Under the pieces are notes generated by a model. That model made no database searches. It was not told the origin of the DNA and saw nothing but the letters and a program-made list of their open reading frames with translations. From a virus, in the IMG/VR virus record IMGVR_UViG_3300027859_000041, positions 1-38,808 of that record: 38,808 bases of DNA; one strand, written 5' to 3'. Made by a program: the position numbers and the translations under genes. The stretch's first letter is position 1, and each line of letters opens with the position of its first letter. Positions 17,643 through 36,021 of the stretch are shown here, in pieces.

Positions 17643-19706
17643 TTAACTAGCTTTGTAGTTTCTGATGTGAACTGATGTTGCACCATTAATCATATCAGTG
17701 AAACCAAGTCTTTGTGAAGCCACAAGGACTCTTCTTTGGTTTTCTACGTCATAATCAGACTCGACGGTTACGCCTCTGAGTCTTGGCATTACATAGTTTC
17801 TTGCATATACTGCACAAGCCATTGTTTTGTTAACAGCTGGTGTAGCAAACTCGTCGACTAGTAATATTCTTGAACCGAATACTTGGCCGATCTCTCCAGA
17901 TAGCTTAGTTGCCATGTCGCCAACTAGGTTAGCATCTTGGAACTCTGCATCTTCGAGTAGTTCGAAATATGCTCTTTGTGAAACAAGGTATAATACCTCT
18001 GATGGATTTACACCATATTTACCCATGTTTTTTCTCATATCAAGTAACTGAGCAGCTGTTAGTTTATCACTAGCAAAAGCTGTTCCAGATACAGTAACGT
18101 GAGATCCACTTGAGTTATCAGCTGTAGCTAATTGAATTAAACCATCAAATGCACCTGATGAATAAACGCCGTTTGCATTGTTACCTGCTAAGATGGCATT
18201 TTCGATACCTCTAGCATGTGCTCTTACCATTGACTCTCTAATTAAAGGTAGTATTGGCATGATAGCGTCTTCTTCAGTTTCATTACCAATGAATGATTTT
18301 GAAATTAGTTTAACTGTTGAAAGAGTTTTCTCTGTTAAGTCAACACCACCTGCTGAACCAGGGTTATATGCGTCGCCTCTTTCCTGTAAATTACCATGTG
18401 GTGAAGAACCACTAGCTGCTTGGTTAGCTGTAAATTCAGCATACCCTGCATCTGGTAAGATTGGGATAATCATATTAGCAGAAGTCATTGGAATCTCTCT
18501 AAATAGAGGTGCTAATACCAATTCGTTCTGAATGTCTCTTTCAATATTTGTTGAAACAACTTGCTCAAAGTCCGCTGAGGAAACAGCAACACCTGAATGT
18601 GCGTTTACTTTTTCCATTAAGCTCTTAGCGTAATCAGTATTGTTTCCTTTACCTGTTGATAACCCTAAGAATTTAGCGTCCATGATGTCTGCTTCAAATT
18701 CTTTTTTCCAGTCGCCTGTACCAGTTCTGTCTGAGAAAATTCTTTTTGACTCTCTGATATTCATGATTTCTTCTGATTTCTCAGATAATTTAGCTTCAAG
18801 TTCTTTTACAACTTTACCTAAATCTTCATGCTTTTCATTGACTCTTTTCTCAACATCAGACATTAACCTTTCAGCTCCTGTTAAACCTGCTTGAATTACA
18901 GATTTGTGTTCTTCCTGTTTTGCTTCTTGAACAGCCTTTTCATTAGCTTCAACTTCTGCAGCTTTTTCAGCGGCTTCGGTTGCAGCTTTTTCTTCTGCTG
19001 CCTTAAGTTCTGCTTGTTTCATTGCATAAGAAGCAACTGCTTTTTCAGCAGCGTCTTTTGCAAATTTGTCCAAGTCGAACTCTGGAGAAGTTTCAGGATT
19101 CATTTTTTCTTCTGACATATCAGTCTCCATTTTTTGGGATTTCTCCCCACTTGGCTGCTCAACTTTCACAGCGTCTGCTGTTGCATCTGAGTTAGCCTGT
19201 ATAAATTGCTTTTTGAATTTATCATAATCTTCCATATTATCAAAGGACTTTGCTAAAGAGAACGTTGCTCCCTGATTGCAAGGTACTGATACTACGGAAA
19301 CTTCAAATAATTCCGCGTCTTTTATTTTATATCCGTCAGTTTCGGTCATATAATCTGCATCCTTGACTCTGAAGCCGACAGAAAACGCTCCAAGGACACC
19401 ATCTTTAACTAAATCTTTTACATCACCAGCAGCTTTAGAAATCCTTGCAGAAATCTCAAGCCCCTTGTCAGTGACCTCTAACCCAGTTGCTCTACCGATA
19501 GGTCTATTGTAGTCATGGTTAAAAAGTAGAACAGGATTACCTTTATAGTTTTCCAATCCACCTTTAGTCCATGCATCTGGCTCGATAATATCACCAGCTC
19601 TATCTAGTGCATTTGTACTTGCAGAACCTTTGATGTCGATACCGCCATCATCAGTTTCGCCTAGGGCTTTAAAAGTATTAGTCCAGTGAAAGATTTTATT
19701 TGACAT
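17643..19706 (-). CDS. Fused prohead protease (S78) and major capsid protein
   Basis: A single 687 aa frame joins two head proteins. Residues about 1-160 are an HK97-type prohead protease: H64 in LFNHDYNRPIG, S109 in GAFSVGFRV, and the acidic strand AELFEVSVVSVPC. Residues about 205-320 are a coiled coil rich in Ala, Glu and Lys, matching the delta (scaffold) domain. Residues about 330-687 are an HK97-fold capsid subunit (e.g. VVSTNIERDIQNELVLAPLF, IPILPDAGYAEFT, late SQRLGF and MINGATSVHI). I chose ATG MSNKIFHW: GGAG lies 7 nt upstream, whereas a more upstream ATG lacks support and lies deep in the previous gene. The start overlaps the previous gene by 11 nt. A second, internal start may make capsid without protease. 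Confidence 0.9.
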   Translation of the reverse strand: MSNKIFHWTNTFKALGETDDGGIDIKGSASTNALDRAGDIIEPDAWTKGGLENYKGNPVLLFNHDYNRPIGRATGLEVTDKGLEISARISKAAGDVKDLVKDGVLGAFSVGFRVKDADYMTETDGYKIKDAELFEVSVVSVPCNQGATFSLAKSFDNMEDYDKFKKQFIQANSDATADAVKVEQPSGEKSQKMETDMSEEKMNPETSPEFDLDKFAKDAAEKAVASYAMKQAELKAAEEKAATEAAEKAAEVEANEKAVQEAKQEEHKSVIQAGLTGAERLMSDVEKRVNEKHEDLGKVVKELEAKLSEKSEEIMNIRESKRIFSDRTGTGDWKKEFEADIMDAKFLGLSTGKGNNTDYAKSLMEKVNAHSGVAVSSADFEQVVSTNIERDIQNELVLAPLFREIPMTSANMIIPILPDAGYAEFTANQAASGSSPHGNLQERGDAYNPGSAGGVDLTEKTLSTVKLISKSFIGNETEEDAIMPILPLIRESMVRAHARGIENAILAGNNANGVYSSGAFDGLIQLATADNSSGSHVTVSGTAFASDKLTAAQLLDMRKNMGKYGVNPSEVLYLVSQRAYFELLEDAEFQDANLVGDMATKLSGEIGQVFGSRILLVDEFATPAVNKTMACAVYARNYVMPRLRGVTVESDYDVENQRRVLVASQRLGFTDMINGATSVHIRNYKAS
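19116..19128 (-). promoter_or_regulatory. Candidate internal ribosome binding site and start for protease-free capsid
   Basis: Within the fusion gene the coding strand reads GGAG, six bases, then ATG (MSEEKMNPE). This falls at residue 197, after the protease domain and just before the delta/coiled-coil domain. Starting here would give a 491 aa scaffold-capsid precursor, removing the 1:1 protease-to-capsid ratio forced by the fusion. Seen: the ATG and well-spaced SD. Inferred: its use. Confidence 0.45.
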
Positions 19707-19956
19707 CTTTTTTCTCCACCTTCTCCTTAACAGGAGCTGCTTTTGGTTTTTCAACCTCTACAGGAGTGATAGAAACAGGATATCTTACTTTCACTACATT
19801 TAAAATTCTATTCCATGAACCAAAGTTTCTCTTTAGTAGATAATCTTTGACAGGAACATCATTTCCATGTGATTTATAAGTAGCTAATTCCATAGTTTCA
19901 ACGCCATGTTTGGCGAAGAACTCAGAAACAGCTTTTATCATCATATCTTTTGTCAT
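19696..19956 (-). CDS. Small protein with FGSWN motif (homing-endonuclease-associated-repeat-like)
   Basis: An 86 aa protein between portal and capsid. Residues 35-60 (PVKDYLLKRNFGSWNRILNVV) match the pattern of the small DNA-binding repeat found beside homing nucleases (..Y....FGSWN.AL..), usually a winged or helix-turn-helix unit. The C-terminus is a Pro/Lys/Glu/Val linker (about residues 66-86). It has a good SD (GAGGAAT), starts three bases after the portal stop and overlaps the capsid start by 11 nt. The DNA-binding role is inferred from the motif only. Alternatively it is a minor head protein. Confidence 0.5.
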   Translation of the reverse strand: MTKDMMIKAVSEFFAKHGVETMELATYKSHGNDVPVKDYLLKRNFGSWNRILNVVKVRYPVSITPVEVEKPKAAPVKEKVEKKDVK

Positions 19957-21598: not shown

Positions 21599-22897
21599 CT
21601 AAAACGAGGTGGCTGTAGTTTCAAATGTATACAACGCATATCGCATAGCATCAGCCATATGCGATGCTCCGTCATGTTTGGGTCTTTCTTTCATCAGATT
21701 AGGGTTTGGATCCCATTGATATTGATCAAGACATGTTATTGCTTCTCTACAACTCTGATTTACAAATAGATCATCATTATCAACTATTCCTGCTACATGT
21801 CCAATTCCATCTAGTACTGATTTTTTAGCGTTTACAGTACTAATGCCATAGTTTTGTGCAAAGTCGAATCTAGTCTGCTGAGCAGCTGAGTCAATATAAA
21901 TCCAATCTATTCCCCATTTATCTATAAGTTTTTGTATTTGCTTTGCATGCTGTTCTGTTGTTCTTTCTGAATCTAGATACTCATCTAGTAAGTAGTACTT
22001 TTTCTCGTCCCAATCATATGCTATAACGCACAAAGCTGTAGGATCTTTATACCCAACATCAAGTCCTGCAAATACGTCCATTTTACTAGTGTCAAAATTA
22101 TTTAGTTCTGCAATCTGAGTTTCATGATTAAATGACCATATCTGACCTTCATAAACATTAAAGTCAGCCATATACTCTTGTGCAAATTCATTAGCAGACA
22201 TTGTTTTCTTTGCTTCAATAATATCTGATTCAGATACTCTTGGATTCTCATGGTAAGTAGCTTTTACACTAGCCCACTCAGGAAACTCGTCGCTAAATCC
22301 TCTGTAATAAAACTCTGCAAAATAATTATTTCTACCCCTTGGAGTAGATATAAAGATTGCTTTTGAATTTTCTTTATCGAGTGTAGGTCTTAGTGCAACA
22401 TTGAAAGCATCTCTACCATCAACAAGTGCTGCCTCATCAAATATAATTAAATCATAACTTCTACCAACAACTGAGTCAACCTGATTAATCGAACCCATAC
22501 GAATAGTAGAATTATTACTTAGTTCTATAACTTTATCTTTTGCATTATCACGAATCACTTCTAAGTCGAAATGCTTAATTAAGCTTCTCTGTAGATCAAA
22601 TGATATTTGTGATAGTGAATAGTTTGGTGACATGAGTAATACATGACAATTTGGAACAAGACAAATAAGTTGTCCTATGATATTTGATATATAAGTTTTG
22701 CCCTGCCTACGAGAAATCGCAGCACAGATAAAACGATATTTTGGATTGTTTATTGCGTTAATAATAGCATGTTGAGAAGTATTAGGAGTAATACCTAATA
22801 AATCCATATAACCTTCAATAGGTAATTTGATGAATCGATCTTCATCAAACTCCATCAAGTACTTAGTCTCTACGTCGGCTCTGCTTGCTTCAATCAA
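21599..22897 (-). CDS. terL: Terminase large subunit
   Basis: A 432 aa DNA packaging motor. ATPase: Walker A variant SRRQGKT (residues 62-68), Walker B LIIFDEA with D154/E155, and coupling motif FISTPRG near 183. RNase H-like nuclease: D280 in GLDVGYKDPTAL, D336 in YIDSAAQ, and D416 in HMADAMRYA. All expected motifs are present, so it should be active. The start is TTG, overlapping the previous stop as TTGA. An ATG at residue 15 (MEFDEDRF) is an alternative. The enzyme cuts and pumps DNA into proheads through the portal. Confidence 0.95.
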   Translation of the reverse strand: MIEASRADVETKYLMEFDEDRFIKLPIEGYMDLLGITPNTSQHAIINAINNPKYRFICAAISRRQGKTYISNIIGQLICLVPNCHVLLMSPNYSLSQISFDLQRSLIKHFDLEVIRDNAKDKVIELSNNSTIRMGSINQVDSVVGRSYDLIIFDEAALVDGRDAFNVALRPTLDKENSKAIFISTPRGRNNYFAEFYYRGFSDEFPEWASVKATYHENPRVSESDIIEAKKTMSANEFAQEYMADFNVYEGQIWSFNHETQIAELNNFDTSKMDVFAGLDVGYKDPTALCVIAYDWDEKKYYLLDEYLDSERTTEQHAKQIQKLIDKWGIDWIYIDSAAQQTRFDFAQNYGISTVNAKKSVLDGIGHVAGIVDNDDLFVNQSCREAITCLDQYQWDPNPNLMKERPKHDGASHMADAMRYALYTFETTATSF

Positions 22898-25758: not shown

Positions 25759-27540
25759 CTATTTTTCGATGGTGTAGATTTTAACTGGTTCGGACTTTCC
25801 TTTGACCGTAACTTCGTCTAAAAATTTGTAGTCATATCCATCAACCATACTGTGCTCAGATATGATAAGACTAGTGTCATAATTTTTGCAACTAGACTCT
25901 AGACGAGCTGCAAGATTAACAGAATCCCCAAGCACACTGTAATCGAAGCGACTGCTACTCCCAAAGTTTCCGACCACGCATAAACCTGTGTTGATTCCCG
26001 CTCCTGTATTAATTTCATCCAAGCCTTCCTCTCTGAGTCTTTCATTGAGTTCTCCTAATGATTCTCGCATTTCGAGAACCGCTTTGGTTGCATTTTCTAC
26101 TTGATTGTCATCATCAAGTGGTGCACCCCAAAATGCCATGATACAATCTCCCATATATTTATCGATTGTGCCACCATGTTTAAGTATGATTTGTGTTTGA
26201 TTATCAAGAAATCTATTTATAAGTTCAGTGAGCCCTTGTGGATTTTTCTGATATTTTTCTGAGATTGGAGTAAATCCTCTGATGTCAGAAAAAAGAAAAG
26301 TCAGTCGTTTGGTCTCCCCACCCAATCTCAGTAATGTTGGGTCTTTTTGTAATTTTTTAACTAAGTCAGGACTAACGTATGTCCCAAATTGTTGTTTGAT
26401 TCGAAGTTTCTGTTGATACTCCGATAGGAAACTTAGGAAAGTATGATAAGACCAAAATAAGAACCCGAGTACGATTGTAGCGGAAACGTCATACAAGTAA
26501 GAAGATTTAAGTAAATAAGTTGCTAAATATCCTTGACCTACTAATAAAGCAACCAATATGGGCACGCTAAAATATACGCTTCGACTTGCAAAAAGTATTA
26601 ATAACATTGATGCAAGTAATATTCCTAGCTCTGCAGACAAAGCCCATGCTGGTTGACTGAATGACTTTCCTTCAATTAAATTGTGTAGTACATTTGCTTG
26701 TATTTCGTGTGGATATACAGAACCTCCTGCAGTAGGTACTGGATTTACCACGCCTTCTGCTGTAACTCCGAATATAACAAAAGGAGCTGGTATTGGATCT
26801 TCCATATACTGAGATGCTGTTTGTCTGTAGAAAGATACATTAGAATTTATCCATATTCTTCCGTTTGGGTCTGTGTTTATAGGATTGTAATTAGGTATAC
26901 GTATCCACTCTACTCCTTGACTAGTCTTAATTTGGTAACTTGGGTCACCGACAGCAACTCTTAACATCTCTAATCCAAATGAAGGATATATTTTATTTCC
27001 TGAACCTACGACTACTGGCAAACGCCTTACGACGCCGTCTAACTCCGGACTTGCATTTATCAATCCTACGCCTTCTGCGTTTTCCTGTAAGATGGGTAGT
27101 TGTCTTAAAATTCCTGGGTACTGTAATAGCCATGGTAGTGGGTCCTCTCCTAATTGAGCAGTACCTACATGTGGTCCTGACTCAGATGCTTGTGTTGAAG
27201 CTGCATAAGCTAACACGGTTGGTTTATTTGTCATAGCTGCTGATAATCTATAATCGTTATTTTTGCTACGTAAATCTGCATCTGGCATAAGTATAGTAAA
27301 CCCCGGGACTCCTGCGGTTCTTTCTATCATGCTAGCAAATAAACTTCTTGGTAGAGGATATCCTCCATAAGCTTCTACTATTTCTTCATCTAGGTCGACA
27401 AGAAGTATATTCTCATTTTGAACTGGTTCTTGAGTTGACATTAAGTAGTCAAAACTTTTTAGTTCTGCAATTTGTAAAGGATAAGGATTCCAAATTAGTA
27501 ATCCTAATATTACAAATATAGATATTATTTTATTTAACAT
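25759..27540 (-). CDS. CHASE2-sensor class III adenylate cyclase
   Basis: A 593 aa membrane enzyme predicted to make cAMP. One N-terminal membrane span is followed by a large periplasmic CHASE2-like sensor (about residues 25-290: ENILLVDLDEE.., YPLPRSLFASMI, GVGLINASPELDGVVRRLP, YPSFGLEMLRV), three spans at about 300-318, 324-344 and 350-372, then the cyclase domain. Catalytic residues are intact: metal Asp D419 (FSDIRGFT) and D465 (KYMGDCIMAF), Lys461 for adenine, S535 in YSVLGDSVN, and N542 and R546. The Lys plus Ser/Thr pair points to ATP rather than GTP. Last gene of the curli-like operon, overlapping the previous gene by 7 nt. In bacteria CHASE2 cyclases are often found with FecR proteins, as here. 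Such an enzyme in a phage is unusual. Confidence 0.9.
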   Translation of the reverse strand: MLNKIISIFVILGLLIWNPYPLQIAELKSFDYLMSTQEPVQNENILLVDLDEEIVEAYGGYPLPRSLFASMIERTAGVPGFTILMPDADLRSKNNDYRLSAAMTNKPTVLAYAASTQASESGPHVGTAQLGEDPLPWLLQYPGILRQLPILQENAEGVGLINASPELDGVVRRLPVVVGSGNKIYPSFGLEMLRVAVGDPSYQIKTSQGVEWIRIPNYNPINTDPNGRIWINSNVSFYRQTASQYMEDPIPAPFVIFGVTAEGVVNPVPTAGGSVYPHEIQANVLHNLIEGKSFSQPAWALSAELGILLASMLLILFASRSVYFSVPILVALLVGQGYLATYLLKSSYLYDVSATIVLGFLFWSYHTFLSFLSEYQQKLRIKQQFGTYVSPDLVKKLQKDPTLLRLGGETKRLTFLFSDIRGFTPISEKYQKNPQGLTELINRFLDNQTQIILKHGGTIDKYMGDCIMAFWGAPLDDDNQVENATKAVLEMRESLGELNERLREEGLDEINTGAGINTGLCVVGNFGSSSRFDYSVLGDSVNLAARLESSCKNYDTSLIISEHSMVDGYDYKFLDEVTVKGKSEPVKIYTIEK

Positions 27541-28097
27541 GGATTTATATTTTGTCCTGTTATATGATGATAATTAGCTCCTGTTCTGCAAGCCGTTTCA
27601 TAGTGATAAATATTCTTTATTATTATGGCTGCAATTATCCAATTTACCACTACAAGTTGACCCTCTTCTAAATTAGCTGCAGCAACCGGTACGGTAGCAA
27701 GTTTTTGTACTAAAAATTGCGCAGCAGATGGCTTTCCCGGCAATAAAATATTAGCCTCGTATAAATTAGGGTGATTTCTAGTCATATGATATGAGGTTGT
27801 CATATCTATTGCATTAAGAATATAAAAAGTTTTTAATTGCCTTTTAGTTGGTTCATTTTTTACATCTATAAATCTAAGACGTTTATTTATTGCTTCTTGT
27901 ATTAAAAATGAGTCTTCTTCTATTTGTCTAAAATCAAAATCTGTTTCTGGTAAAGTTAAATCTAATTCTTGAGCATGTAGAGGATTTGCAAAATATAATA
28001 ATGCTCCTCCTACTAGTAGTAGAGCTAGTAATCCTCTCATAACTTTTTCCTTCATACTTGTTCTTTTTGGTCTCATGACCTTATATTTATATTCCAT
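27534..28097 (-). CDS. Exported or membrane protein of the curli-like operon, unidentified
   Basis: A 187 aa protein with a basic N-terminus and a signal/anchor span (LLALLLVGGALLYFANPLHA, cleavage possible after PLHA, near residue 42). Residues about 90-140 (LKTFYILNAIDMTTSYHMTR, NHPNLYEANILLPGKPS) resemble a small membrane family with an N..D...T.......P...E.N.LL pattern (DUF5658-like). A second hydrophobic stretch lies at about 148-162 (VVVNWIIAAIIIKNI). SD AAGGA supports the ATG. Two late cysteines (ACRT, INPC). Placement between curlin-like and cyclase genes suggests a membrane partner of one of them. Function unknown. Confidence 0.6.
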   Translation of the reverse strand: MEYKYKVMRPKRTSMKEKVMRGLLALLLVGGALLYFANPLHAQELDLTLPETDFDFRQIEEDSFLIQEAINKRLRFIDVKNEPTKRQLKTFYILNAIDMTTSYHMTRNHPNLYEANILLPGKPSAAQFLVQKLATVPVAAANLEEGQLVVVNWIIAAIIIKNIYHYETACRTGANYHHITGQNINPC

Positions 28098-28107
28098 ATT
28101 GTGTTCC

Positions 28108-28902
28108 TTATTGTTGTGTTATGCTTATAGTCTTTGTACAATTTTGAGTACAGTTAAAAGTAGCTGTATATGTTTGATTAGTTGCTCCTAATTGAGTTAC
28201 ATCTACATTATATCCAGTTGTATAAAATTTCATATTTGCTACATGAGCTCCTGTTCCATATTGTGTTAAGTCTACTTCATTATCAGAGTTGTAAAAGAAT
28301 ATATCTGCATCCTTATTACCACTACCATATTGAATTACAGTAGCCGAGTTATTATGTGCGCCTCCATTTCCATAGATGTAAGAATTGTGTTGTCCAGTAC
28401 CATATTGATTTACAGTAATGTCAGAGTCATCTCCAAAAAAGAATATCTTAGCATATTTATTGTTTCCTGTTTGAGTTGTTGAATAAACGTTATCATCTCC
28501 TGAGCCTAAGGATTCTGCATGATTACTATTTCCTGTTTGAGTAATAGTTACTGTATTATCATCTTCGTCTTGATCAATGTATGCATAGTTATCATTTCCA
28601 TCTATAGTTACAGTGGATGAATTTCCTATATTGTTTGACCATACAGTAAACATTTTAACAGTATTACTGTTACCTTCTACAGTACTACTCCATACAGCAT
28701 TTGTACAACTATGACCGCTGTAGTTAGCTCCTAGCACAGTACCGCTTGAGTTTGCCCCACAAAGAATAGTAGTAGTATTACCATTTCCTACCTGCTTGGT
28801 AGTGATTTGATTATTAGTACCTTTAGTAATAATTGTAGTAGAATTATCTCCTGCAAAACTAAGGGGACTGATTAATAATAATAACGTTATCGCCCGCACC
28901 AT
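28108..28902 (-). CDS. Curlin-repeat exported protein 2 (CsgA/CsgB-like)
   Basis: A 264 aa protein with a cleavable signal peptide (MVRAITLLLLISPLSFA, cut before GDNS) and then roughly ten repeats of 20-28 residues rich in Asn, Gln, Gly, Thr and Tyr. Examples are NQITTKQVGNGN, VTITQTGNSN, ITVNQYGTGQHN, ATVIQYGSGN and VDVTQLGATN. The Q.G..N steps are the curlin signature that stacks as a beta-solenoid amyloid. Cysteine pairs (LCGAN..HSC and NCTQNC) are unlike enterobacterial curlin. GGAGG nine bases before ATG. It overlaps the FecR gene by 44 nt. Predicted to be carried out by the neighbouring CsgG pore. Confidence 0.85.
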   Translation of the reverse strand: MVRAITLLLLISPLSFAGDNSTTIITKGTNNQITTKQVGNGNTTTILCGANSSGTVLGANYSGHSCTNAVWSSTVEGNSNTVKMFTVWSNNIGNSSTVTIDGNDNYAYIDQDEDDNTVTITQTGNSNHAESLGSGDDNVYSTTQTGNNKYAKIFFFGDDSDITVNQYGTGQHNSYIYGNGGAHNNSATVIQYGSGNKDADIFFYNSDNEVDLTQYGTGAHVANMKFYTTGYNVDVTQLGATNQTYTATFNCTQNCTKTISITQQ

Positions 28903-29959
28903 TTATATTTACCTCCAATATTACTCCTGCGTTGTTTATATATAAATAAGTACCTGCATTTATATCGATACCTATATCGTAATTGTTTTGTCCTTCGTGT
29001 ACAAAGTAAATCATTCCTTCTTCCACAAAAGTGTAAGTTTGGTATATTGGGTCAAAACCTGCAATAATACCTTCGAGTTCTACTCCATTTAATTCTGAAG
29101 TTTGGTTTCTTTTTCTACTAGTAGTCTCCACTAATGCTAATAAATCTACAAGAAACTCTACGCTTAATAAGTCAATGTCTATTCTTGTAACTTCTTTGTT
29201 CTCTTCGTCACATTCCTCTACTAGAGCATCGCAATTTAAGTCTGGTGCATCTTCAAAGAAATCTTTATCTAAATCTGCAGTAGGTGATACACTGGCTTGT
29301 TGTTGTTCTACTGCTTGTTCGACTTCTTCAGGTCTTTGAACTATTAACATATTATCAATTAGTCCAAGTGTCATATTTGCTAAAGTAACAGCTTGTGTGG
29401 GTGGTTGTTCCCATGCTGAAACCATGGTCGCTTGAAAAGGTTCATTAAGAACTTCTACTCCAGATGCTGTTGTAACAGTTATCTCACCTGAAGAAGAGCC
29501 GTCTTTATTTGGTAGTAGTATAACTAAACTTCTGCCTAATTCATCTACAGTAGTTGTAAAGTCTGTACCACGAATACCAATAGTTGCTGTTGGAGTATTA
29601 ATAGTTATATTTTCTTTATTAATTTTTCCAAAAGCTCCTGAAATAAATCGAGCTGTCCCAGATGCCATTTGAAGAGACATTTTACTCTTACTTGGATCTG
29701 GGTCAAAAATATATTCGTCTATAATTAGTTTTGAGTGTTCTGTTAGTCTAACTATAGAGTCATCTAAAAATTCAATTGCAAGTCTACCGTTTCCAGTTCT
29801 TACATCATCGAATGAAAAGATATCTGAGTCTAGTTCTGCGGTTAAAGCTTCACTAGAGTTTACTCTAGTAATCTCCCCGTTTCCTTTGAGCTCAGATATC
29901 TCTCCTATTTCTGTTGAAAAGGCTGGTATACTGAAAAGTATTAACAGCCAGATGCGCAT
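28859..29959 (-). CDS. FecR-domain exported protein
   Basis: A 366 aa protein with a signal peptide (MRIWLLILFSIPAFS, cut before TEIG). Residues about 45-145 form a FecR domain: DDVRTGNGRLAIEFLDDS, the LTEHSKLIIDEY strand, GTARFISGAFGK, and the hallmark TPTATIGIRGTDF at 122-134. The middle is acidic with a Cys pair (LNCDALVEEC), and the C-terminus is strand rich (NYDIGIDINAGTYLYINNAG...). FecR domains are periplasmic and, in bacteria, often accompany CHASE2 cyclases. Here one lies between two curlin genes. It overlaps the upstream curlin gene by 19 nt with only a weak SD, so it depends on coupled translation. It may sense the fibre or the envelope (inference). Confidence 0.85.
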   Translation of the reverse strand: MRIWLLILFSIPAFSTEIGEISELKGNGEITRVNSSEALTAELDSDIFSFDDVRTGNGRLAIEFLDDSIVRLTEHSKLIIDEYIFDPDPSKSKMSLQMASGTARFISGAFGKINKENITINTPTATIGIRGTDFTTTVDELGRSLVILLPNKDGSSSGEITVTTASGVEVLNEPFQATMVSAWEQPPTQAVTLANMTLGLIDNMLIVQRPEEVEQAVEQQQASVSPTADLDKDFFEDAPDLNCDALVEECDEENKEVTRIDIDLLSVEFLVDLLALVETTSRKRNQTSELNGVELEGIIAGFDPIYQTYTFVEEGMIYFVHEGQNNYDIGIDINAGTYLYINNAGVILEVNINGAGDNVIIINQSP

Positions 29960-30618
29960 TGATCTACATCAATAGTACCATTTGAAGTGGTAGATATTAT
30001 GTTTGCAACGTTCGTACTTGCAGTATCAGTTTGGTCAATAGTTACAGTATTAGAACTTCCAGTTAAAGATGCTGTGATTTGATGGTCAGCAGAACCTGTC
30101 TGAGTAGTAGTAATACTATTACTGTTCCCACTAATAGTCCAATTATTTATACAACCCACAACTTCACAAGTACCTGTTACAGCATTTGAAGTTCCTGTTA
30201 TACTAAAGTCAGTGTTGGCTCCAGTAGCTGTCGAAGCAGCACCCTGAGTCCATGAAAGAGTATTACTGTCACCAATCGTGATATAATCAAAATCAGAACT
30301 AGCAATATCTCCTGAAGCTCCACCTGCTAAAGTAGCAGTGTTACTATCACCAGTGACTCTGTAAGTCCAACTAGATGAGTTGCCTTGAAGTAGTGAAGCC
30401 AAGAAGGAGTTAGTATCTCCAATCTGGTCTATGTCTACTGTCATTGAAGTACCTGACAAAGTTGCTCTATTTTGAGATGTACCAACATTGTTAGTAGCAC
30501 CTATTTGGTCAATAGTCAAAGTAAGTCCTGTACCTGTTTGAGTAATATATAAATCATTATTACCCGCGAACGCTGTAAAAGATAGAACAATCGCGAATAG
30601 TCCAATTATCTTTTTCAT
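29941..30618 (-). CDS. Curlin-repeat exported protein 1 (CsgA/CsgB-like)
   Basis: A 225 aa protein. I chose ATG MKKIIGLFAIVLSFTAFAG: SD AGGAGA precedes it, it overlaps the csgG stop as ATGA, and it yields a classic signal peptide. The mature part has repeats with Q.G..N or G.SN steps (YITQTGTG, IDQIGATNN, VDIDQIGDTNS, RVTGDSNTA, TIGDSNTL, SITGTSNAV, TISGNSNSI, SLTGSSNTVTIDQ). This is curlin-like and likely an amyloid or fibre subunit. It ends DVDQCASGC, with paired cysteines. Which of the two curlin genes is the nucleator (CsgB role) cannot be told by reading. Confidence 0.85.
   Translation of the reverse strand: MKKIIGLFAIVLSFTAFAGNNDLYITQTGTGLTLTIDQIGATNNVGTSQNRATLSGTSMTVDIDQIGDTNSFLASLLQGNSSSWTYRVTGDSNTATLAGGASGDIASSDFDYITIGDSNTLSWTQGAASTATGANTDFSITGTSNAVTGTCEVVGCINNWTISGNSNSITTTQTGSADHQITASLTGSSNTVTIDQTDTASTNVANIISTTSNGTIDVDQCASGC
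29946..29958. repeat. 13 bp repeat encoding C-terminal CASG (copy 1; copy 2 at 31491-31503)
   Basis: AGCCAGATGCGCA (plus strand) is identical at the 3' end of curlin 1 and of csgF. It encodes Cys-Ala-Ser-Gly near both C-termini and lies within the start region of the next gene in each case (FecR and csgG). It may reflect a shared C-terminal motif or a duplicated junction. Confidence 0.5.
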
Positions 30619-31508
30619 TCTTTTTCTCCTAGGCTTGAGTAGTCGAAGTCCCAAACCTCTTTTTCGAGTCCCTGTATAACTAAGCCATATACTGCTGCTT
30701 CTATAGCAGCTCTTACAGCTTGCCCTACAGGCTCGTTCTCTGTACTACCACTTTCAATCTCAACAAGTTCTGTACCAAGTTCTATAAACCTGAATACATC
30801 TCCTCCGCCTCCAGTAGATAGTATAGTTTTTGTGGTTGTAACATTTAACAGAACTTCGCCTGTTTGAACTAATACAGCTCTTAATGTTACCGTAACGATG
30901 TCCTCACGATATTGATTCTTCATACCTATTCCTAGATATCGAGCACCGTTACCCCCAGTTCTTATGTTAGTATCGTAACTAACAATACCACCTTCTATAA
31001 TCATTCCTGCATATAGTAGTGGTTTCAAAATTGTTTTTCCATCTGCCCCTTTATTATAGGACTCAAAAGTACTTCTTACAAGTTGTCTTTCTTTTGTTAA
31101 AGCATCAAGTCCAGTTCTCTCTACAACTACAAACCAGTTTCCTCTGCCTGCATCTCTTAAAGCTTCAATCAGAATATGATGTGCCCCCTGAGTTACAGCA
31201 GTACTAAAACTTGCTATATTGTCTCCGCCTTTTCTTTGGCCAGAGTTATCCCCAAAGTTGTATACTGCCACAACAGTTTTTTGATTAGGGTATGGTAAAT
31301 TAAGTAATTGCTGAGTAGCACTTGGTTGTATGACAGGGCCTGTCTTACATATCATTTTATCAGTACCTGCTTTTGCAAGTCCTGTTACAACATCTTTATT
31401 AAATCCTTCTTCAAACCTATAACAGTTATCAAAGCTTTGTGGTGCTCCAAATGAAGCACAGCCAACAAGTAATAAGGGAGCTAATACTTTAGCCAGATGC
31501 GCAGTCAC
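30615..31508 (-). CDS. csgG: CsgG curli secretion channel lipoprotein
   Basis: A 297 aa outer-membrane export pore. The GTG start (MTAHLAKVLAPLLLVGC) has GGAGG eight bases upstream and gives a lipoprotein signal with lipobox LLVG and Cys17. CsgG landmarks are in order: VAVYNFGDNSGQ, the NIASFSTAVTQGAHHILIEAL helix, WFVVVERTGLDALTKERQLVR, AGMIIEGGIVSYDTN, TGGNGARYLGIG, YREDIVTVTLRAVLVQTGEVL, TTKTILS (beta-barrel hairpin region), FRFIELGTELVEIESG, NEPVGQAVRAAIEAAV, and the late DF. It is close in length to E. coli CsgG (277 aa). Nine copies form the pore that exports curlin. It overlaps csgF by 20 nt. Confidence 0.96.
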   Translation of the reverse strand: MTAHLAKVLAPLLLVGCASFGAPQSFDNCYRFEEGFNKDVVTGLAKAGTDKMICKTGPVIQPSATQQLLNLPYPNQKTVVAVYNFGDNSGQRKGGDNIASFSTAVTQGAHHILIEALRDAGRGNWFVVVERTGLDALTKERQLVRSTFESYNKGADGKTILKPLLYAGMIIEGGIVSYDTNIRTGGNGARYLGIGMKNQYREDIVTVTLRAVLVQTGEVLLNVTTTKTILSTGGGGDVFRFIELGTELVEIESGSTENEPVGQAVRAAIEAAVYGLVIQGLEKEVWDFDYSSLGEKE

Positions 31509-32025
31509 TAAAACATCCTCCGAAGCTTCCAACTGGTATTTCGATAGTTGTTGTTGATATCAACACTCCATCTAACCATTCTTCAACTACTAGAGTGATT
31601 GTGACTCCATTGTTTGTCCAAATTATTCTGTTACCTTCTAACCAGATTTCTCCAGTTACAGGATTTTCTAGGGTACCAGGATTGTTATAATCAAAAAGAG
31701 ATTCTGATATATCCTTTGCAAGTGTGCTATAGATTCTGCTTTCTAGATTTCTTAAGAATTTTGCAAGAGTTGTATTGTCTGCCTCTCTTTGAGCTTCATC
31801 TAGTGCATCTTGAGCTTTTTGATATAAAGCTTCTTTTCTTGTTCTTTCTTGTTCATCAATAGTTAAATAGTGTGCGGATTGATTAATCCCACTAAAACTA
31901 GGTGAACCAAATTTATGTACCAATTCTGTAGCATTTAAGTCTACTGCGATTACTACAAACGTTAATACTAGTAGTGCTCCTATTACGGCATTTGATACTC
32001 TATTATTTAATTTTCTTTCGTTCAT
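31489..32025 (-). CDS. csgF: CsgF-like curli assembly factor
   Basis: A 178 aa exported protein with a signal/anchor span (about residues 12-30), then the mature start TELVHKFGSPSFSG. F39-x-x-P-x-F-x-G46 matches the CsgF segment (FRNPNFGG in E. coli) that plugs the CsgG constriction. The middle helix (TLAKFLRNLESRIYSTLAKDIS) and C-terminal strand pair (GNRIIWTNNGVTITLVVEEW, STTTIEIPVG) follow the CsgF plan. It is the gene directly before csgG, as expected. In E. coli CsgF links the pore to nucleation at the surface. It ends GGCFSDCASG, an added cysteine tail. It overlaps the upstream membrane-protein gene by 23 nt. Confidence 0.85.
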   Translation of the reverse strand: MNERKLNNRVSNAVIGALLVLTFVVIAVDLNATELVHKFGSPSFSGINQSAHYLTIDEQERTRKEALYQKAQDALDEAQREADNTTLAKFLRNLESRIYSTLAKDISESLFDYNNPGTLENPVTGEIWLEGNRIIWTNNGVTITLVVEEWLDGVLISTTTIEIPVGSFGGCFSDCASG

Positions 32026-32254
32026 TTTCTTTAAGTTGTAAAACTGTGTCCAGTTTCTTTTGCAGACGAATCATATCATTATCTAACATTCTTATTTGAT
32101 CGATAAGTTGTAAAATAGTAATTTTCATTTCTTCGATTGCAGGGTCTATTTTTTCTGTTACTGTAGTCCACACAAAGTATACAAAATATCCTAATCCCAC
32201 CATTGCAACAACTGGGAATCCAAATTGTTGGATAGCATCAATCACGTCTTGCAT
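32003..32254 (-). CDS. Small membrane protein with coiled coil (paralogue B)
   Basis: An 83 aa protein: membrane span near residues 10-30 (FGFPVVAMVGLGYFVYFVW), then a coiled coil (IEEMKITILQLIDQIRMLDNDMIRLQKKL). It matches its upstream neighbour in layout and in the NNDMI/DNDMI coiled-coil motif, so the two look like tandem copies. Layout resembles phage holin-like or membrane-anchor proteins. Function unknown. It overlaps csgF by 23 nt and its neighbour by 17 nt. Confidence 0.65.
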   Translation of the reverse strand: MQDVIDAIQQFGFPVVAMVGLGYFVYFVWTTVTEKIDPAIEEMKITILQLIDQIRMLDNDMIRLQKKLDTVLQLKENERKKIK

Positions 32255-32531
32255 CTATACTTCCTGATTCTACAAAATTTTCTGCTCTTGCTATTTTGTC
32301 TAAGTCTGGCGTAAGTCCAAGAGCTGAACTTACACTCATATCTATTTTAATCATATCATTGTTCATTGCTTTGATACGAGTAATTAACATCTTAGAGATT
32401 CCTCGAACTTCTTCTGTATCTCCAACAACGTCATCCATAATTTTTCTTATAATTAAAAAGATAAAACCACCCATAAATATTGCTGCCGCAATGGGTGCTC
32501 CAACTTGTCCTATAATATCAAATACTTCCAT
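32238..32531 (-). CDS. Small membrane protein with coiled coil (paralogue A)
   Basis: A 97 aa protein: N-terminal span (residues about 8-28, QVGAPIAAAIFMGGFIFLIIR), then a charged helix and coiled coil containing IKAMNNDMIKIDMSV. It starts by TAATG overlap with the IscA-like gene. It pairs with the downstream gene of the same build. Both are candidates for holin-type pores or for anchoring the curli assembly in the inner membrane. Neither role is shown by sequence. Confidence 0.65.
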   Translation of the reverse strand: MEVFDIIGQVGAPIAAAIFMGGFIFLIIRKIMDDVVGDTEEVRGISKMLITRIKAMNNDMIKIDMSVSSALGLTPDLDKIARAENFVESGSIDARRD

Positions 32532-32896
32532 TATACCTCTATTGCGAATATTTTATCTTCGTTTACTTTTTCTATGTCAAAATTTATTGAAACCCCACAA
32601 CCGCATGATGATTGCTCTTTAGGGTTGATAAATTTAAATAGTTCATTTAGTCCTTCTCTCTGAAAGTCTAACGTCATGCCTACTAAGTAAGGGACTGATA
32701 GTTTATCTATCAAAACCCTAAATTTTCCGAAATCCAGTTCCACATCTTCTTTGCTTGGTGTACTATTAGTCCTATCAAAGACATACTCAAAACCAGCACA
32801 CCCCCCACCAGTAATACCCAGGCGGATGCCAGAAAATTGCTCTGCTTTCTGTTTCTCCAGAATCTTGGTGATTGCTTCATTAGTAATCTCTATCAT
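32531..32896 (-). CDS. iscA: A-type iron-sulfur carrier (IscA/ErpA/HesB family)
   Basis: A 121 aa protein from ATG MIEITNEAITKILEKQ. The start overlaps the previous stop as ATGA, and GGAG lies about ten bases upstream. The three cluster-binding cysteines are in place: C33 in GITGGGCAGFEY, and C98 and C100 in SSCGCG. Length and spacing fit E. coli IscA (C35, C99, C101). The family passes Fe-S clusters to target proteins. It lies two genes after an IscU homologue but with no cysteine desulfurase in view, so sulfur must come from the host or a gene outside the window. Confidence 0.93.
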   Translation of the reverse strand: MIEITNEAITKILEKQKAEQFSGIRLGITGGGCAGFEYVFDRTNSTPSKEDVELDFGKFRVLIDKLSVPYLVGMTLDFQREGLNELFKFINPKEQSSCGCGVSINFDIEKVNEDKIFAIEV

Positions 32897-33087
32897 GGCA
32901 TATTGTCTCCGTAAAACTCTCTGCACTGCTCCTCAAAGTCAGAATCCCAATATTCATCAGTTTTCTTTTTATTCTTGTGAACTTGCGTTCTACCATGCTT
33001 TGGTGTCTTTTTCCGACCAAATATTTTATCCCAATTGTCTCTAAATTGTTGCTCGTTTGTTGGTCTTCTTTTGCTTCCTTTTCCCAT
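32893..33087 (-). CDS. Small charged phage protein, MGKGSKRRP family
   Basis: A 64 aa protein with the opening MGKGSKRRPTNEQQFRDNWDKIF, a small-protein pattern I recognise from many phages, and a C-terminus rich in acids with one cysteine (EEQCREFYGD). No metal motif is complete. It lies between iscU and iscA and is coupled to iscA by an ATGA overlap, so it might assist those proteins. It could equally be a passenger. Function unknown. Confidence 0.65.
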   Translation of the reverse strand: MGKGSKRRPTNEQQFRDNWDKIFGRKKTPKHGRTQVHKNKKKTDEYWDSDFEEQCREFYGDNMP

Positions 33088-33107: not shown

Positions 33108-33560
33108 TTATGTATTCTGCCGCTCTTCATCATCTTGTGAAATTTTTTGGTTATGTTTTCTATATCCAGTTTTCTTCTCCCAGTTTAAGATAGCTTGTTT
33201 TATACTATCTTGTGCTAAGACTGAACAGTGTAATTTTATGGGCGGCAAATCTAATGCCTTTGCGATGTCCCTATCTTTTATTTGTTTTGCTTCTTCTATA
33301 GTTATTCCTTTTAACATATCAACGAATAAAGTAGAAGATGCTATTGCACTTCCACAACCATAGGTTTTAAACTTGACATCTATGATTCTATCATCGTGGT
33401 CTAGTTTGAGTTGTAGCTTCATGACGTCTCCACATGCAGGAGCTCCTGTCATACCTGTTGCTACATTTGGGTCTTTTGGGTCGAATCTTCCAACACTAAA
33501 TTGTTTTGGACTATTCAGTACTCCATAAAATCTTTCGTTTACTTCTTTACTATACGGCAT
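33108..33560 (-). CDS. iscU: Iron-sulfur cluster scaffold (IscU family)
   Basis: A 150 aa protein that matches bacterial IscU almost end to end: TGMTGAPACGDVMKLQLK with C43 and D45, KTYGCGSAIASSTL with C69, and LPPIKLHCSVLAQDSIKQAI with H111 and C112. All ligands for cluster assembly and the HscA-binding LPPxK motif are present, so it should work with a host IscS. The C-terminal 20 residues are an extra polar tail relative to E. coli IscU (128 aa). The start overlaps the previous gene as TAATG. Confidence 0.95.
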   Translation of the reverse strand: MPYSKEVNERFYGVLNSPKQFSVGRFDPKDPNVATGMTGAPACGDVMKLQLKLDHDDRIIDVKFKTYGCGSAIASSTLFVDMLKGITIEEAKQIKDRDIAKALDLPPIKLHCSVLAQDSIKQAILNWEKKTGYRKHNQKISQDDEERQNT

Positions 33561-34072: not shown

Positions 34073-35131
34073 CTAATCATGACAAAAGCAGGTGTACGTT
34101 GTATCTTCCATTAGGGGTTTATGTGGTTTTTTAGATAAATCAAGTAATTGTATGTAACTACCTCTATTGTATCTAAAGTTTTGTCCTGAGTTCTTTTCTG
34201 CTTCTATCCACCAGTCTGCAAGTTCAGGTTTTTCTGCAAGTAGGTTTACTATAGTATTAGTTCCTTTTAGAAAACATAGGTCACAGTTGCCTGCCACTGT
34301 TTTTCCATTTATACTTGGTATATTTAAATCAAAGTAATTTTTTGACCAGAAATTAAGAACGTCTTCATTTGTTACTTTACTTTCATACAAGGGTGCAATA
34401 TTTATATTTCTATCTCCACCCTTTCGAGCATCAGTAACTCTTTTAGGTTCGTCATATCTTAGTCCTAGAGCAGCGTACCACTCTGCATGGCCTTTGCTTC
34501 TCATAAATCTATTAATTACCTCTACTTTAAGAGTCTGAGTACAAGTTCTTTGAAATACGCTAGGTAGCTTTGATCTTTTATTAAGCATTTGAGTAAAAGG
34601 TTCTCCTTTTCTTGAAGCTGTTTTATAACTAACTTCATTAGTTCTCCATATAGGTCTTGTCTCTGAAATTTCTAATTCCAACCAGTTTACCTTCACTTTC
34701 CACTCTGTTTCACATTTATGTACAAAGTCTAAAGTCTCAGGTAATTCTTTTCCTGTATTTGCAAAGCATACAAATATATCTTTAGGTAGTTTTCCTTTAT
34801 ATGCATTAAGTATCTTTCTTAACATATAAGCAGAGGTTCTTCCGCCTGAAAAAGAAATACATGCAGGAGTAGGAATTTTAAAAGACTTATCATAATTTTC
34901 ATCTAAGTGAGAAACTGCTCTTGCACGAATAGGCCAATAGTCAGGCATACCTGTGTTTATTCTATCATACCTATAGGTTTGGAATATTCTTCCAGTAAGT
35001 TTTGGATCGTTTGTTATAATTTCTTTTTTCTTATAAGGTTGGTTTGTGTCTGGATTAAGGAGTAGTTTCTTGGCTTCGCCAGCATTATTTTCATGCCACC
35101 AAACTCCATCATCATCTATCCATTTACTCAT
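34073..35131 (-). CDS. PAPS-reductase-like PP-loop enzyme
   Basis: A 352 aa protein of the adenosine phosphosulfate reductase / ATP pyrophosphatase group. The PP-loop ISFSGGRTSAYML has SGGRTS at 95-100, followed by the VCFANTGKE strand near 121-129. Cysteines C197 (QRTCTQ), C283/C286 (NCDLC) and C348/C350 (CFC) could hold an Fe-S cluster, as in several PP-loop enzymes such as DndC. An extra N-terminal 75 residues is Trp-rich. True sulfate reductases carry a C-terminal ECG.H motif, which I do not see. A nucleic-acid or base-modifying role, or sulfur transfer, is as likely as sulfate reduction. It overlaps the DNA methyltransferase gene as ATGA. Confidence 0.8.
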   Translation of the reverse strand: MSKWIDDDGVWWHENNAGEAKKLLLNPDTNQPYKKKEIITNDPKLTGRIFQTYRYDRINTGMPDYWPIRARAVSHLDENYDKSFKIPTPACISFSGGRTSAYMLRKILNAYKGKLPKDIFVCFANTGKELPETLDFVHKCETEWKVKVNWLELEISETRPIWRTNEVSYKTASRKGEPFTQMLNKRSKLPSVFQRTCTQTLKVEVINRFMRSKGHAEWYAALGLRYDEPKRVTDARKGGDRNINIAPLYESKVTNEDVLNFWSKNYFDLNIPSINGKTVAGNCDLCFLKGTNTIVNLLAEKPELADWWIEAEKNSGQNFRYNRGSYIQLLDLSKKPHKPLMEDTTYTCFCHD

Positions 35132-35985
35132 TGTTGAAAGTAGCTAAGTGGTTTAAATATATGAGTTACAGTATTTATGTTCCAACCATTGCCACAAGCT
35201 TTATATCTTTGTGTGTCTGATACTCCCTCTGTAAAATTGTCGGGCAGTCCTTGTAATCTTTCAAATTCAATCGGAGTTAATCTTCGTACTCTATTTCCTT
35301 GTTTGATATAACCATAGTTATATCCATGAGAACCTGCACAAAGTGTTGGAGCTTTAGAATCTAAGCTGTGTATTCTATTTGCTTGACTTTTATAATTTGG
35401 ATTCAAAATATCTCCGCCTTGATAATTGTCAAGTAACTTCTGGCCTGGATTATAATTATCCGCAACATCAGTCTCTACTATATCTCCTAAAGTAGTTTTG
35501 TCTAAACTGGGCGGGTGTCCTACATTGGGTATATTTGTCCAATAGTAGCGTTGTCGATTCTGGGCAGATACTGCATTAGAGTTTATGAGTACTGGCTCTA
35601 CTTTCATATAAGAAGTAATTATATCTAACCATTCTTTTTTCATACGAACATTTTCTAATAAGAAGAACTTTGGTTTGCACTCTTCAAGTATACGAACGAA
35701 CTCAAAGAAAAGTGCACTTCGTGGGTCATCGAAAGCTAACTTCTTTCCCGCTAGAGAGAAGCCCTGACATGGAGATCCTCCTATCAGTAAATCAATCTTG
35801 GGTAAGTAGTCAGTCTGTATATTCTTAACATTCCCGATTTGTTGATTATCAGGATAATTGTTAGAATCTATCTGTAAACAGAATTGATCTACTTCGGAGC
35901 TAAAATAATTATCGATAGTTACCCCTGCACGCTCCAGTGCAAGTCTTCCGCAACTAATACCATTAAATAAACTTAATACATTCAT
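35128..35985 (-). CDS. DNA C5-cytosine methyltransferase
   Basis: A 285 aa enzyme with motifs in order: I LFNGISCGRLALERAG; IV GGSPCQGFS with catalytic C73; VI ENV (111-113); VIII QNRQR (142-146); IX RRLTPIEFERLQGLP; X GNGWNI. Short variable region, so a short recognition site is likely; the site cannot be read from sequence. Motif I reads NGISCG rather than the common SGIGG. I chose ATG MNVLSLF because a start further upstream would lie before the -10 of its own promoter. No partner restriction enzyme is in view, so protection of phage DNA or gene control are likely roles. Confidence 0.94.
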   Translation of the reverse strand: MNVLSLFNGISCGRLALERAGVTIDNYFSSEVDQFCLQIDSNNYPDNQQIGNVKNIQTDYLPKIDLLIGGSPCQGFSLAGKKLAFDDPRSALFFEFVRILEECKPKFFLLENVRMKKEWLDIITSYMKVEPVLINSNAVSAQNRQRYYWTNIPNVGHPPSLDKTTLGDIVETDVADNYNPGQKLLDNYQGGDILNPNYKSQANRIHSLDSKAPTLCAGSHGYNYGYIKQGNRVRRLTPIEFERLQGLPDNFTEGVSDTQRYKACGNGWNINTVTHIFKPLSYFQQ

Positions 35986-35992
35986 AATATAA

Positions 35993-36021
35993 ATTATATC
36001 AAAGTATAGGGAAAATGTCAA
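35993..36021 (-). promoter_or_regulatory. Promoter P4, perfect sigma70 consensus, leftward
   Basis: TTGACA, 17 nt, TATAAT. The -10 ends seven bases before the methyltransferase ATG, so the message would be leaderless or nearly so. Confidence 0.9.

Follow-up and report, generated by a model that had tools for sequence, protein, structure and literature searches.

A predicted CHASE2-linked adenylate cyclase within the curli module of a T5-like siphovirus

Adhesive-fibre machinery in marine phages is a known puzzle, for which sibling capture, an uptake pore, and a lysis pore have all been proposed. Wittmers and colleagues described a curli (type VIII secretion system, T8SS) module with an adenylate cyclase (AC), a FecR protein, and a histidine kinase (HK) in pelagiphage podo- and myoviruses, with viral curli proteins found at 65 of 65 GOV2.0 ocean stations and expression detected (PMC9599517); the phage module also appears in earlier reports (PMC7029224, PMC9004378). 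The same authors described one or two HK genes ahead of the module, called their HK short and diverged, and stated that FecR and the cyclase do not occur within bacterial curli operons (PMC9599517). Two bacterial systems are also pertinent. The CHASE2 class III adenylate cyclase CyaD1 of S. meliloti turns constitutive when its CHASE2 domain is removed (PMC5498481), and in Burkholderia contaminans, a periplasmic FecR-domain protein and a CHASE2 histidine kinase are encoded in an operon that controls biofilm (PMC5192318).

The DNA analyzed here (hereafter, the window) is a stretch of 38,808 nucleotides, positions 1 to 38,808 of IMG/VR record IMGVR_UViG_3300027859_000041. It belongs to a genuine phage of a T5-like siphovirus lineage: the large subunit of the terminase (TerL; 21599..22897, minus strand) is 48% identical to those of T5-like phages and is accompanied by genes for a portal, a protease-capsid protein closest to T5-like Vibrio phages, a tail terminator, a major tail/tail tube protein, a tape measure protein, Dit, and a J-like fibre. 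These T5-like head, tail, and packaging genes rule out a cellular contaminant, as does the TerL gene found downstream of the cyclase in 75 of 75 related loci (those with more than 2.5 kb of downstream sequence among the best 80 IMG/VR loci, defined below). The T5-like relatives listed have genomes larger than 100 kb, and the contig is therefore most likely a fragment. Elsewhere on the contig, the prohead protease and major capsid protein, two separate genes in T5-like Vibrio phages, are seemingly fused in a single 703-residue ORF (17643-19754, minus strand). A PAPS-reductase-like protein (34073-35131, minus) and a C5 cytosine DNA methylase (35128-36021, minus) adjoin the curli module, and genes for IscA-like and IscU/NifU-N Fe–S cluster assembly proteins (32531-32926 and 33108-33560, both minus) lie directly upstream of it; the IscA/IscU pair recurs in about 20 related phage loci.

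The module itself is arranged on one strand, the minus strand, in the order two small membrane proteins, CsgF, CsgG, curlin 1, a FecR-domain protein, curlin 2, a 187-residue protein, and the cyclase. The two small proteins, of 97 residues (32238..32531) and 83 residues (32003..32254), each have a predicted coiled-coil tail; the first is a paralogue-like neighbour of the second, which is conserved in the cultured phages HTVC008M and Melnitz. They are followed by CsgF (31489..32025; Pfam CsgF, E 5e-8) and the outer-membrane curli pore CsgG (30615..31532; Pfam CsgG, E 7e-56), whose in-frame start may fall downstream of the listed TTG. Curlin-repeat protein 1 (29941..30654) is assigned by synteny together with a Pfam Curlin_rpt match just below the cut-off (E 5e-4). 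Next come the 366-residue FecR-domain protein (28859..29959), recognized by Pfam and by its model and bearing an apparent N-terminal signal peptide, and the fibre subunit curlin-repeat protein 2 (28108..28902; Curlin_rpt, E 1.6e-15), which ends in TKTISITQQ. The 187-residue protein (27534..28097), with a predicted N-terminal membrane or signal segment and homologues in 22 loci, shares its last 7 bases with the start of the cyclase gene. CsgE, a sigma factor, and a TonB receptor were not seen among the genes of the module.

Compared with the pelagiphage module (HTVC008M AGE60353.1, Melnitz QZI95054.1, PHROG 35576), the gene set is the same and the order nearly identical, with CsgF, CsgG, curlin, FecR, and adenylate cyclase co-located in sequence. 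The cyclase is 39% identical to that of HTVC008M and 36% identical to that of Melnitz over the full length, and matches PHROG 35576 with an E-value of 1e-171. Unlike the pelagiphage modules, which are carried by myo- or podoviruses, this one resides in a T5-like siphovirus, lies between Fe–S genes and TerL, and has the additional 187-residue gene before the cyclase. The position of the published histidine kinase is occupied by the 97- and 83-residue membrane proteins, in neither of which a kinase domain was found; judged by gene position, these proteins are most likely what has been called HK.

The cyclase has relatives in at least 596 IMG/VR stretches, of which we read the best 80 (49–84% identical); these were chosen by closeness to the query and are a sample of this phage lineage rather than of all carriers. 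Both small membrane proteins, CsgF, CsgG, curlin, and FecR were present in 27 of 27 of these loci with more than 5.5 kb of upstream sequence, and the linkage of the cyclase to the curli/FecR module is thus invariable in the T5-like phages sampled. A first-pass annotation of the window had considered the cyclase by itself and held phage-borne CHASE2 cyclases to be rare; the number of related stretches, the named gene in HTVC008M and Melnitz, and the published module (PMC9599517) show the claim of rarity to be wrong, and the surrounding curli/type VIII secretion operon with FecR provides the main functional clue. What is new is the carrier lineage for an already published marine phage module: we found no report of the module in T5-like siphoviruses in the literature searched, which is not proof of absence.

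The cyclase ORF starts at 27540 and stops at 25759 on the minus strand, encoding 593 residues, and the coordinates and catalytic residues given in the first-pass annotation are confirmed. A CHASE2 domain (residues 11–314, E 9e-31) precedes a Guanylate_cyc domain (residues 411–592, E 1e-18). The AlphaFold2 model (mean pLDDT 88) places a periplasm-sized domain (about residues 40–290) between an N-terminal helix (2–17) and three further membrane helices (300–318, 322–344, and 353–385) that lead to the catalytic domain, an architecture that together with the Pfam assignment corresponds to a CHASE2 sensor. The domain order and catalytic residues are those of bacterial CHASE2 class III adenylate cyclases such as CyaD1, and the catalytic part is related to P. 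aeruginosa CyaB and Spirulina CyaC, with Foldseek matches to CyaB, CyaC, and Cya2 at a TMt of about 0.8.

The residues expected of a class III cyclase of adenylate type are all present at the numbers predicted: two metal-binding aspartates (D419 and D465), the purine-binding lysine and serine (K461 and S535), and the transition-state asparagine and arginine (N542 and R546). Among 30 cyclase homologues, D419, K461, D465, N542, and R546 are invariant, and position 535 is Ser in 28 and Thr in 2; the place of Ser535 is taken by Thr in solved relatives such as CyaB. At the position equivalent to Lys461, CyaB (3r5g) has Lys and Cya2 (2w01 chain) has Glu. Lys is the ATP-specifying residue, and guanylyl cyclases have Glu at that site (PMC4215837), from which we infer that ATP is the substrate. 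In the Melnitz cyclase (L003, 10001-11785), the transition-state Asn is replaced by Ser and Ser535 by Asp, and that enzyme may be weak or inactive; with this loss of residues, activity is therefore not essential in every carrier.

To assess constraint, we calculated pairwise dN/dS (Nei–Gojobori) across the T5-like phages, where pairs are not independent. The median for the catalytic domain of the cyclase is 0.09, compared with 0.23 for CHASE2 and 0.37 for the cyclase membrane helices; CsgG gives 0.25 and the FecR domain 0.16. Purifying selection on the catalytic domain is thus strong, and enzyme function is being maintained. A chance or miscalled ORF is ruled out by the profile E-values, synteny, and selection. 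Domains, residues, selection, and model thus give good support to the first-pass description of a class III cyclase that is membrane-bound, of ATP type, and equipped with a periplasmic CHASE2 sensor, and on the strength of its sequence, the protein is likely an active adenylate cyclase.

The FecR-domain protein is not a canonical FecR. Following the apparent signal peptide, it consists of a FecR domain and an all-β C-terminal domain, and Pfam finds the FecR domain alone, at odds with an anti-sigma regulator of the ferric-citrate type, in which a cytosolic anti-sigma domain and a membrane helix come before the periplasmic FecR domain. Fold matches of the FecR domain are to the periplasmic domains of PupR and of a putative anti-sigma factor, and part of the model also pairs with 5ix9, described as a cell surface anchoring domain (Foldseek; TMt 0.75, 28% identity, 63 columns). 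The C-terminal domain evolves fast (dN/dS 0.66), and its terminus is fixed as [IVL]x[IVL]xQ in 54 of 54 phage proteins. The same strand-Gln ending occurs in 21 of 21 curlin 2 subunits, in 0 of 603 proteins of other families at these loci, and in 12 of 916 of all other ORFs; the terminal Gln is also retained in the Caulobacteraceae copies described below. Beyond this motif, neither a profile comparison (hhalign probability 0.3%) nor a fold comparison detected homology between the C-terminal domain and curlin, and we claim the shared terminal motif alone.

The closest bacterial cyclase (43% identical) is found in a Caulobacteraceae genome (G001/L084), where it belongs to an intact csgF-csgG-curlin-curlin-FecR-cyclase operon with cellular genes around it. 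A second Caulobacteraceae genome (G041/L194) holds the same operon with different flanks; both assemblies look like drafts, and L084 is titled a MAG. The operon has all parts of the phage module except the two small membrane proteins, and its CsgG is nearest to the phage versions, but it differs in being chromosomal with cellular flanks, in having the second curlin before FecR, and in having Thr at position 535. Such operons are rare: a full-length FecR of the phage-module type was found in 2 of 390 Caulobacteraceae genomes and 1 of 385 genomes sampled in the class, and FecR and cyclase were absent from all five other alphaproteobacterial curli operons examined. They nevertheless contradict the published exclusion of FecR and cyclase from bacterial curli operons. 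Neither CHASE2 nor the C-terminal motif of FecR nor any such bacterial operon is named in the earlier study, which lists AC, HK, and FecR (PMC9599517); this intact operon in two Caulobacteraceae genomes and the curlin-like terminal motif of FecR are likewise new.

The first-pass annotation had proposed a tree with bacterial CHASE2 cyclases to find the donor lineage. In our cyclase tree, the phage proteins group with the two Caulobacteraceae copies in a single clade (SH-aLRT 100), to which none of the 29 other bacterial CHASE2 cyclases belongs. In the CsgG tree, the two Caulobacteraceae proteins are nested inside the phages (94/87), but an all-phage CsgG clade is not rejected (AU p 0.18), which is consistent with transfer between phage and bacterium in either direction. 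The different chromosomal neighbourhoods of the operon in the two Caulobacteraceae genomes suggest movement.

With moderate confidence, we propose that the cyclase is a homodimeric inner-membrane enzyme converting ATP to cAMP and that it serves as the signalling output of the phage curli module, its CHASE2 domain most likely reading the FecR-domain protein. CsgG/CsgF pores, curlin subunits, and the exported FecR-domain protein would be produced from the phage genes upon infection; CHASE2 would most likely sense the last of these and, through it, how curli export or assembly stands, and would set cAMP synthesis in the infected cell accordingly. By the precedent of CyaD1, CHASE2 would restrain the enzyme until signalled. 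The choice of FecR as the partner of CHASE2 is suggested by their association and by the bacterial FecR–CHASE2 precedent: like the module here, the B. contaminans operon sets an exported FecR-domain protein beside a CHASE2 membrane sensor and is tied to surface attachment, although it lacks curli genes and signals through a histidine kinase and a response regulator. Counting against the proposal are the low number of other close bacterial CHASE2 cyclases with a FecR gene detectable near them (8 of 79), the failure to detect homology between the FecR C terminus and curlin, the lack of a cAMP receptor in the phage records searched, and the altered catalytic residues of Melnitz. A further-reaching version is possible, if somewhat unlikely: FecR would physically link the fibre or export channel to the CHASE2 cyclase by means of the curlin-like strand at its C terminus, and the resulting circuit would be a mobile one, shared by three phage types and settled in some bacteria, perhaps by passage from phage to bacterium.

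The alternative that survives best, though we consider it unlikely, is that the curli genes are mere operon neighbours of the cyclase, which would work on its own and flood the host with cAMP, thereby reprogramming metabolism or catabolite control. Such a role is consistent with the conserved catalytic residues, with purifying selection, and with the presence of a cNMP-binding domain in 285 of 385 Alphaproteobacteria genomes; that domain is, however, missing in many of the smallest alphaproteobacterial genomes of the sample. The cyclase is also inseparable from the curli/FecR module in the 27 informative T5-like loci and accompanies it in HTVC008M, Melnitz, and the two bacterial genomes, and CHASE2 faces the periplasm, through which FecR and the curlins pass. 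The first-pass annotation had envisaged cAMP redirecting either catabolite control or motility/adhesion. The curli/FecR operon lends support to adhesion, but catabolite control is unsupported, as a search of 10 phage records (two complete genomes and eight contigs) turned up neither a cAMP-binding protein nor a phage-borne cAMP receptor.

Two further proposals from the literature appear quite improbable for this locus. The first is an iron-responsive curli switch that would include the cyclase and have FecR as its iron-dependent regulator (PMC9599517). The FecR domain, its fold matches to PupR and the putative anti-sigma factor, and the IscA and IscU genes that many of these phages have immediately upstream would fit such a switch, but the apparent signal peptide, the Pfam assignment of a FecR domain alone without an N-terminal cytosolic anti-sigma part, and the lack of a sigma factor or TonB receptor among the module's genes argue against it. 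The second, put forward for Melnitz, takes CsgG/CsgF as repurposed into a lysis-timing pore (PMC9004378); the cyclase would then report the envelope state so that lysis is timed. No clumping of infected cells is reported (PMC9004378), and the module adjoins structural genes and TerL rather than known host-takeover genes, both compatible with a lysis pore; the proposal rests on absent curlins, however, and curlin-repeat subunits are present in the window, Melnitz, and HTVC008M.

Production of cGMP, or a relaxed specificity, is very unlikely: Ser at the second purine-binding position also occurs in guanylyl cyclases (PMC4215837), but Lys461, where those enzymes have Glu, is invariant in all homologues. 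A decaying, functionless passenger gene, which the loss of the catalytic Asn in Melnitz might suggest, is extremely improbable given the full-length ORFs and the selection on the catalytic domain across the T5-like phages.

The linkage described here makes the cyclase integral to the curli machinery in yet another phage lineage. The FecR C terminus, CHASE2, and cAMP together offer a concrete, testable coupling, in genes that lend themselves to transfer into laboratory E. coli. If the further-reaching version of our proposal is correct, the phage would carry a self-contained circuit that senses the fibre and signals through cAMP.
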